Positions 2,851 to 11,490 of a DNA stretch of 33,179 nt are shown here, one piece after another (the stretch's first letter is position 1; each line of letters opens with the position of its first letter). The DNA comes from Parcubacteria group bacterium GW2011_GWA2_48_9 (lineage in GTDB: Bacteria; Patescibacteriota; Patescibacteriia; UBA10025), in contig LCPQ01000008.1 in NCBI GenBank assembly GCA_001003705.1, positions 1 through 33,179 of the forward strand, written 5' to 3'. Both the position numbers and the translations under genes were made by a program. The notes beneath the pieces are model-generated. The model did not search any database. It saw only the letters and a list, made by a program, of their open reading frames with translations, and was not told the DNA's origin.

Positions 2851-4029
2851 ATGAAGAAGCGAAAGCACGTAGCAAAGAAAGCTCGTCCAGAAAAGAAAAA
2901 GATTGCAAGAAAAACCAAGAAGCGCATCATAGAGCCCCCGCGAATCCACGAGGAAACGGTTCTCAGGTTGATTCAAAAAGGACGCTCGCGTGGTTTTATT
3001 ACCGAGACCGAAATTCTCTACGCACTTCCCGAAGTTGAAGAACAACTTGATCAGTATGAAGGGATTTTGGATCGGTTGGACAGCATGGGTGTCCAGGTTA
3101 TTGAACACACACCACCGCTCATCGGAGACCTGACACCTCTCGAGCCGACTAAAGAGAAAAAGAAAACCAGGGAATCAAAAGCTTCTCTGGATCTTTCTGA
3201 TATTTCAAATGATTCCATACAAATGTACCTGCGTGAAATAGGAAAGGTGTCGCTCTTGAAAGGGGAAGAGGAGGTTTCACTCGCGAAGAGAAAGGATAAG
3301 GGTGATACTGAAGCGAAGAAAAAGCTCGTCGAGGCGAACCTTCGGCTCGTCGTCAGCATTGCGAAGAAGTTTACTGGACGCTCACTTTCACTCCTCGATT
3401 TGATTCAAGAAGGGAACATCGGCCTATTTCGTGCGGTTGAAAAATTCGATTACCGAAAAGGGTACAAGTTTTCCACGTATGCGACATGGTGGATCCGCCA
3501 GGCGATTACCCGTTCGCTTGCCGACCAGTCACGGACAATTCGCATTCCCGTCCACATGGTGGAAACCATCAATAAATTCCAGCAGGTTGAACGCCAGCTG
3601 ATACAGGACTTGGGGCGGGAGCCGCTGCCTGAGGAGATTGCTGCAGAAATGGGCGAAGAAGTTGACAAAATCCACCATATCATTAAAATCTCACAAGACA
3701 CCGTTTCATTGGAAACATCCGTGGGTGACAGTGACGACGAAGATTCAGTGCTCGGTGACTTCATTGAAGACGTGAAGACGGTAACACCTGACAGAGTAGC
3801 TGCGATGAGACTACTGCGAGACCACGTGATAGGCATCATTCAGGAACTGTCGCCTCGCGAACAAAAGATTCTGGAAATGCGGTTTGGATTGAAGGACGGC
3901 GTCGCCCATACACTCGAGGAAGTCGGCCAGGAATTCGGCGTCACCCGCGAACGTATCAGACAGATTGAAGCTAAAGCCCTGGAAAAAATCGAAGTGCATG
4001 AGGGCATGAAGCGGCTGAAGGATTATTAG
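2851..4029 (+). CDS. rpoD: RNA polymerase sigma factor RpoD (sigma-70)
   Basis: Region 2 '[40 protein letters not shown]' and region 4 '[27 protein letters not shown]'. Confidence 0.97.
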
Positions 4030-4044
4030 AAAGGCCCGCTTAGC

Positions 4045-4116
4045 TCCGCGGTAGCTCAATGGTAGAGCAACCGGCTGTTAACCGGTGGGTTCCCAGTTCG
4101 AGTCTGGGCCGCGGAG
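4045..4116 (+). tRNA. tRNA-Asn (GUU), copy 1, intact
   Basis: Cloverleaf: acceptor TCCGCGG/CCGCGGA, anticodon arm ACCGG-CTGTTAA-CCGGT, T arm CCCAG-TTCGAGT-CTGGG. Confidence 0.95.
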
Positions 4117-4238
4117 CTAAGCGGGTGTTTTTGTCTACATTATAGTAGCGAAATGGGTCGCGGCAACAAGTCCCGCACGCGGGACGCAGGCCGCGACGGG
4201 CATGACGATGTCGCCGAAGGCGACCGGCATGCCCAGGG

Positions 4239-4253
4239 AGAGCAACCGGCTGT
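4239..4253 (+). other. Partial tRNA-Asn 5' exon (AGAGCAACCGGCTGT), duplicate of 4064-4078
   Basis: Exact 15-nt copy of the D-stem/anticodon portion of the upstream tRNA, ending at the predicted 5' splice site. Confidence 0.85.
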
Positions 4254-4474
4254 GAAGTAACGCAGCCTCTCGAGGAGACTCAAGAGTGAAAACGAGGTGA
4301 AATTCTGGAAGCCCCGCAGCCGCGGGGTAATCAGAAGCCAAGTCCAGCTCAGCTGGAAAGGTTCAGAGACTAGGGAGGAATCCCGTACTCTCCGCGTTGA
4401 GCGTTGGGGAAGCGCCTCGGTCGCCTTCGGCGACATGATATAGTCCACGCCCTTTGGTAACAAGGGGATCAGTG
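4254..4474 (+). ncRNA. Group I self-splicing intron (no ORF inside), flanked by partial tRNA-Asn exons
   Basis: P7 strands 'GTTCAGAGACTA' and 'ATGATATAGTCC'; 'AATCAGAAGCCAAG' Q-like element; P1 pairs exon GGCTGT (4248-4253) with internal guide GCAGCC (4262-4267), ending in a U.G pair at the 5' splice site; terminal G (4474) before 3' exon TAACCGG. Confidence 0.9.
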
Positions 4475-4512
4475 TAACCGGTGGGTTCCCAGTTCGAGTC
4501 TGGGCCGCGGAG
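4475..4512 (+). other. tRNA-Asn 3' exon (duplicate of 4079-4116)
   Basis: Exact 38-nt copy TAACCGGTGGGTTCCCAGTTCGAGTCTGGGCCGCGGAG, starting at the predicted 3' splice site. Confidence 0.9.
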
Positions 4513-4659
4513 TTTAGGGTTCGATCACGTAGACATATTATTACGCTAGTTCATGTCCTGGACCCCTATTTGGGAATCTCGCCTCCGAAGCTGAGAGGGG
4601 TGTTTTCGTATCCACGAGCATATTAGCTTGTCCGATAGTAAGCATGATATAATTCAAAC

Positions 4660-11364: not shown

Positions 11365-11373
11365 GTATACTGT

Positions 11374-11445
11374 TCCCCTGTAGTTTAATCGGCAAAACGC
11401 TGCACTGTTAATGCAGTCATGGTGGTTCGACTCCACCTGGGGGAG
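11374..11445 (+). tRNA. tRNA-Asn (GUU), copy 2
   Basis: Acceptor TCCCCTG/TGGGGGA (two wobbles), anticodon arm CTGCA-CTGTTAA-TGCAG, T arm GGTGG-TTCGACT-CCACC. Confidence 0.88.
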
Positions 11446-11490
11446 TTGGTAAGTTGATTTTTCTCACGACAAAACGTACCATACTGGCGT

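Follow-up and report, generated by a model that had tools for sequence, protein, structure and literature searches.

The closest described relatives of the intron considered here are the group I introns of bacterial tRNA genes (RF00028). Those of cyanobacterial tRNA-Leu and tRNA-fMet and of proteobacterial tRNA-Ile resemble it in having a P1 to P9 fold, a U.G pair at the 5' splice site and a terminal G, and insertion in the anticodon loop is common to this group and to our locus. REP/REPIN sequences, MITEs and the Rickettsia palindromic elements are short palindromic mobile repeats, and homing endonuclease cassettes, such as the fungal mitochondrial mobile ORFs that carry a partial gene duplication, restore the gene that they invade. 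Group I introns in the tRNAs of CPR bacteria have already been noted (PMC8172020). The intron described here is unlike the known bacterial tRNA introns in its site, tRNA-Asn 35/36, and in its host, a broken tRNA-Asn duplicate that lies beside an intact copy.

The stretch of DNA that we analysed (the window; 33,179 nucleotides) is contig C8 of a patescibacterial genome of 1.26 Mb in 44 contigs. Best matches to the sigma factor encoded in the window were from Patescibacteria, with Ca. Kerfeldbacteria at the top. The locus lies directly 3' of this primary sigma-70 gene, and a sigma-70 gene followed by tRNA-Asn was found in most of the relatives examined. The features of the locus are as follows.

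2851-4029, + strand: primary sigma-70 factor gene (rpoD-like), the upstream anchor of the locus (Pfam Sigma70 r1.1, r1.2, r2, r3, r4)
4030-4130, + strand: inverted repeat with arms at 4030-4051 and 4109-4130, then a T-rich run (repeat search, folding, comparison with other tRNAs)
4045-4117, + strand: intact intronless tRNA-Asn(GTT), copy 1 (ARAGORN; Rfam tRNA, 69.6 bits)
4139-4243, + strand: structured tRNA-associated element in the 5' half of copy 2 (covariance model R2 with this copy left out; family covariation)
4157-4197, + strand: element hairpin 1, GTCGCGGC ... GCCGCGAC, with an inner hairpin (fold and pair table)
4198-4234, + strand: element hairpin 2, GGGCATG ... AU bulge ... CATGCCC (fold and pair table)
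4238-4253, + strand: retained 3' end of the copy 2 5' exon, GAGAGCAACCGGCTGT, ending at the 5' splice site (near-identity to copy 1)
4254-4474, + strand: group I intron, 221 nt, P1 to P9 (RF00028; pair counts in an alignment of 23 introns)
4475-4512, + strand: tRNA-Asn 3' exon of copy 2, same as copy 1 over 38 nt (repeat search)
4571-4591, + strand: possible third tRNA-Asn 3'-end remnant, TGGGAATCTCGCCTCCGAAGC (18/21 against a tRNA-Asn 3'-end query; next best 9/21)

The intron is ordinary for these bacteria and is a new member of a known group. RF00028 matched 4244-4467 over its full length at 73.9 bits (E 3.5e-17; cut-off 50 bits), and no other group I intron was found with this Rfam model in the host genome. 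P1 is formed by GGCUGU at 4248-4253 and GCAGCC at 4262-4267, with U.G at its end; the terminal nucleotide of the intron, G 4474, stands ahead of TAACC, and joining the flanks places CTGT directly before TAACC. A first, sequence-only reading of this DNA had called the group I intron with a good P1 and P7 and a junction restoring tRNA-Asn at position 35/36, and both calls were borne out. The core from P3 to P8 was assessed in an alignment of 23 tRNA-Asn introns, the window's and 22 others: P3 and P7 were paired in 100% of cells and P8 in 89.9%. Over the whole alignment, 86.6% of cells were paired as against 74.2% after shuffling, 37 pairs were changed on both sides, and covariation from P1 to P9 was well above that of shuffled and slid controls. 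The U.G at the 5' splice site was present in 23/23 introns, and the row for the window intron contains every invariant core column. Given this intact core, the window intron is predicted, most likely, to self-splice.

Group I intron matches were found in 170 of 384 genomes of the class. The loci fetched yielded 61 distinct introns at tRNA-Asn 35/36, the window's among them, and the 60 others in the class fall into two sequence types. Five genomes (G001, G017, G047, G080 and G108) have a group I intron in a tRNA-Asn linked to rpoD. We considered derivation of the window intron from that of G001, a relative in the same family with an intron at the same site, and rejected it: the two belong to different sequence types, with no BLAST hit between them, so tRNA-Asn 35/36 has been invaded more than once. 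Related copies of an HNH-type ORF lie within the loop of P1 in the tRNA-Asn intron of G017 (L150) and G080 (L155, where it is broken) and between rpoD and the intron-bearing tRNA-Asn in G001 (L142) and G047 (L154); of the four ORFs, that of G047 alone reached the Pfam cut-off for HNH. A perfect inverted repeat of 19 nt links hairpin 2 of the element (4208-4226) to intron P8 (4418-4436); in the whole 1.26 Mb genome there are only five occurrences of its sequence, GTCGCCNNNGGCGAC.

Copy 1 is, as had been claimed, an intact and intronless tRNA-Asn(GTT) upstream of the intron. The inverted repeat around it lengthens its acceptor stem by about 10 bp, to 17 bp (-60.7 kcal/mol by folding). Acceptor stems with at least 10 extra pairs were seen in 13/47 tRNA-Asn genes and 1/128 other tRNAs; in addition to 4030-4130 of the window, tRNA-Asn lies inside a stem-extending inverted repeat in L004, L006, L007, L010, L012, L016, L018, L027 and L153, and some of these repeats end in a terminator-like T run. 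Another intact tRNA-Asn(GTT), unlike copy 1 in sequence, was called by ARAGORN at 11373-11446 of the window, which brings the intact tRNA-Asn genes of the genome to at least two.

Copy 2 retains the 3' half of a tRNA-Asn almost without change. Positions 4079-4121 and 4475-4517 share 95% identity across their 43 nt, and the match is 38/38 between 4079-4116 and 4475-4512, as the sequence-only reading had it; its claims that the tRNA match beside the intron is confined to a 15-nt 5' exon, here the stretch ending in CTGT at 4253, and that the intron at 35/36 sits in a rearranged tRNA-Asn duplicate behind an intact copy are likewise supported. After local splicing, the anticodon stem and T arm of copy 2 would be perfect and its acceptor 5' strand unmatched: the acceptor strands would be ATTATAG and CCGCGGA, which do not pair, and ARAGORN, which calls copy 1, called no tRNA in the spliced copy 2, with or without the element. 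The 5' acceptor strand differs from that of copy 1 at 6/7 positions; no change is seen in the 15 nt that precede the splice site. The spacer was also tried as an alternative tRNA 5' half and was rejected, since acceptor pairing fails. A remnant comparable to the possible third 3' end at 4571-4591 is present in L325.

The sequence-only reading had also proposed that the intact upstream tRNA serves as a second 5' exon, a 5' splice at 4073-4078 removing 4079-4474, such that tRNA-Asn would be made with or without splicing. GGCTGT does occur at both sites, the distal join gives a perfect tRNA-Asn that ARAGORN accepts, and among the upstream candidates only this 5' exon, 396 nt away, pairs with the 3' exon in full; some relatives, moreover, accommodate several hundred nt in P1 where an endonuclease ORF sits in its loop. 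However, with P1 forced to 4073-4078 the stretch 4030-4520 folded at -220.3 kcal/mol instead of -243.1 kcal/mol, a penalty of 22.8 kcal/mol, whereas the local P1 hairpin alone is worth -10.5 kcal/mol, and the upstream GGCTGT is buried in a complete tRNA with the extended acceptor stem described above. Each of the 60 other introns at this site directly follows an intact 5' exon, and that exon pairs with the 3' exon; the window alone has its fully pairing exon at a distance, in an intact tRNA. The distal product would be the tRNA that copy 1 already encodes, with no obvious gain, and another genome, G141, has the arrangement without any intron. We therefore consider the use of a second 5' exon very unlikely, although the distal site may on rare occasions be used.

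The region before the 15-nt exon had been read as spacer. The exon stands, but the spacer does not: 4139-4237 is a structured element with D-arm-like flanks (TAGCGAAATGG at 4146-4156 and GAGAGC at 4238-4243). Within 4139-4243 the order is TAGCGAAATGG, hairpin 1, hairpin 2 and AGGGAGAGC, and the same series was found in G141 after rpoD, in a second, intronless tRNA-Asn copy, in G059, in a broken tRNA-Phe half, and in G027. A covariance model of these four copies (R1) matched 36 of 193 genomes of the class, with 16 copies in G141, seven in G067, six in G001 and five in the window genome. A second model (R2) was built from 16 other copies, excluding that of the window, which were aligned without reference to structure. 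Their consensus has two hairpin domains with compensatory change at 21 of 25 pairs; 93.1% of cells were paired, compared with 67.9% after shuffling and at most 41.5% in slid controls, and 0/500 shuffles scored as high. R2 recovered 4139-4243 at 65.3 bits (E 1.4e-15) and, with E values of up to 1 allowed, matched nothing in 640 kb of further loci, most of them from outside Patescibacteria. Rfam 15 gave no match to the element above a gathering score, permissive thresholds yielding sub-threshold matches only, and a search of the open literature found no prior description. The family thus looks undescribed, as far as Rfam 15 and open papers go.

The 5' flank of the element in the window agrees with copy 1 at 10/17 positions (shuffle maximum 13), which is no significant similarity, and it resembles the TAGCGAARTGG flank common to other elements. 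We rejected the idea that TAGCGAAATGG is a chance match to a 5' exon: the flank is insignificant against copy 1 yet recurs in other elements, and it is therefore read as part of the element, which, judging by these sequences, may carry this piece of 5' flank itself.

Elements of this family usually lie beside tRNA genes. The window element is 22 nt downstream of copy 1 on the same strand; in the fetched loci, 34 of 45 copies have an intact tRNA within 400 nt, on the same strand in 33 of the 34, mostly at 10-70 nt and across many isotypes. The ends of R1 and R2 contain D-arm letters, which favour copies in tRNA halves and may partly account for weak phylum-wide matches that overlap tRNAs, but which by themselves do not favour a second intact tRNA next door. 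Within the host genome, 6 of 10 copies (E < 0.01) are no more than 250 nt from a same-strand tRNA, compared with an expectation of a few percent given the density of tRNAs. Many copies elsewhere have no tRNA 3' half. The clearest examples have the element inside a copy of the adjacent tRNA, which it divides in the D-loop after GG: in L334 (tRNA-Thr) its flanks match the neighbouring tRNA at 16/17 positions on the 5' side and 19/20 on the 3' side, and in L342, L359, L338, L322 and L323 the 5' flank agrees with the adjacent tRNA at 17/17. Among single loci, L329 of G059 has an intact tRNA-Phe flanked by the halves of a second one that is filled with hairpins; the acceptor strands of this second tRNA-Phe, GCCGCGG and CCGCGGC, remain fully complementary. 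G037 and G128 (L322, L324) have in common a long hairpin-rich stretch downstream of tRNA-Asn, which in L322 ends in a copy of the 3' end of the tRNA (GTCCAGTTCGCGGA).

In length (about 100 nt), richness in hairpins, lack of coding capacity and occurrence as several dispersed copies per genome, the element is like REP/REPIN sequences, MITEs and the Rickettsia palindromic elements. It differs from them in its two-domain fold with compensatory changes, its conserved AA(CUGC)UU and CGAUG motifs, and its strong placement in or beside tRNA genes. We prefer to regard the family as a mobile palindrome; no transposase was identified for it. Alternatively, it could be a functional class of structured RNA, carried in tRNA-like scaffolds beside functioning tRNA genes of almost all isotypes in Patescibacteria, with the scaffold in the window also hosting a group I intron that must splice for the RNA to be made; this we regard as a tentative idea with perhaps something to it, but doubtful.

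A narrower suggestion is that copy 2 itself is alive, its spliced, element-bearing RNA being a functional tRNA-like RNA, as that of the intronless copy in G141 might be, and the intron simply being removed. The family covariation indicates a strongly constrained structure, and in G141 copy 2 is intact outside the element, scores 40 bits as a tRNA and has acceptor strands that pair at 6/7 positions. Against this stand the unpaired acceptor strands in the window, the ARAGORN rejection even without the element, and the many copies lacking a 3' half, and we judge a living copy 2 improbable. It is less probable still, indeed hardly credible, that the tandem is an artefact in which two strain alleles, with and without the intron, were joined in a metagenome bin. 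Such a fault would be compatible with a 44-contig assembly and with the identity of the two 3' halves, but the flanks of copy 1 and copy 2 differ on both sides, an independent genome, G141, has the same two-copy tandem after rpoD with the same element, and tRNA-Asn also follows rpoD in tandem in G002, G048 and G067.

Broken tRNA-Asn copies are found at other loci as well. An interrupted copy of the 5' half precedes 10 of the 45 tRNA-Asn genes without an intron and 8 of the 61 with one (reverse-complement control, 0/63), and the interruption nearly always consists of hairpins. In L014, L028, L041, L044, L129 and L151, an old hairpin-interrupted 5' half is followed by an ORF of about 80 aa of the GIY-YIG type and then by an intact tRNA-Asn; Pfam confirmed the domain in the five ORFs examined, those of L028, L041, L044, L129 and L151. 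In this combination these loci are like homing cassettes and look like an endonuclease cassette that restores the tRNA it invades, which points to endonuclease-driven insertion, the 5' half being replaced in the process, as one origin of tRNA-Asn duplications. The window differs in that no GIY-YIG ORF was found in it.

Taken together, we favour, at a probability of roughly 0.7, a reading in which copy 2 is a pseudogene that has received both the element and a group I intron, the latter most likely still self-splicing. The tRNA-Asn locus linked to the sigma factor would have been duplicated, copy 1 remaining intact and intronless and, with the gene at 11373, supplying tRNA-Asn. Copy 2 would then have taken up the element in its D-loop region and the intron at 35/36. 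Splicing through the local P1 would join the element-bearing 5' part to the normal 3' half, and the joined RNA would probably not work as a tRNA, since neither its 5' acceptor strand nor its D-arm still matches. Copy 2 would thus be a pseudogene that harbours a live intron, which the intact copy 1 and the second gene at 11373 would permit. Simple decay is at odds with an unchanged 3' half and 15 nt before the splice site next to an altered 5' acceptor strand; for such uneven change, a recent duplication and element insertion, or gene conversion, must be assumed. With its intron in a broken duplicate, the composite locus is a new variant.

The element family is the more interesting result than the intron. 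Through this locus a family of structured repeats comes to light that Rfam 15 does not contain and that is associated with tRNA genes throughout Patescibacteria; this family would account for the broken tRNA copies in their reduced genomes and for the turnover of tRNA genes there. It also allows one to ask directly whether large insertions in the D-loop of tRNAs are tolerated, or used, by these bacteria.
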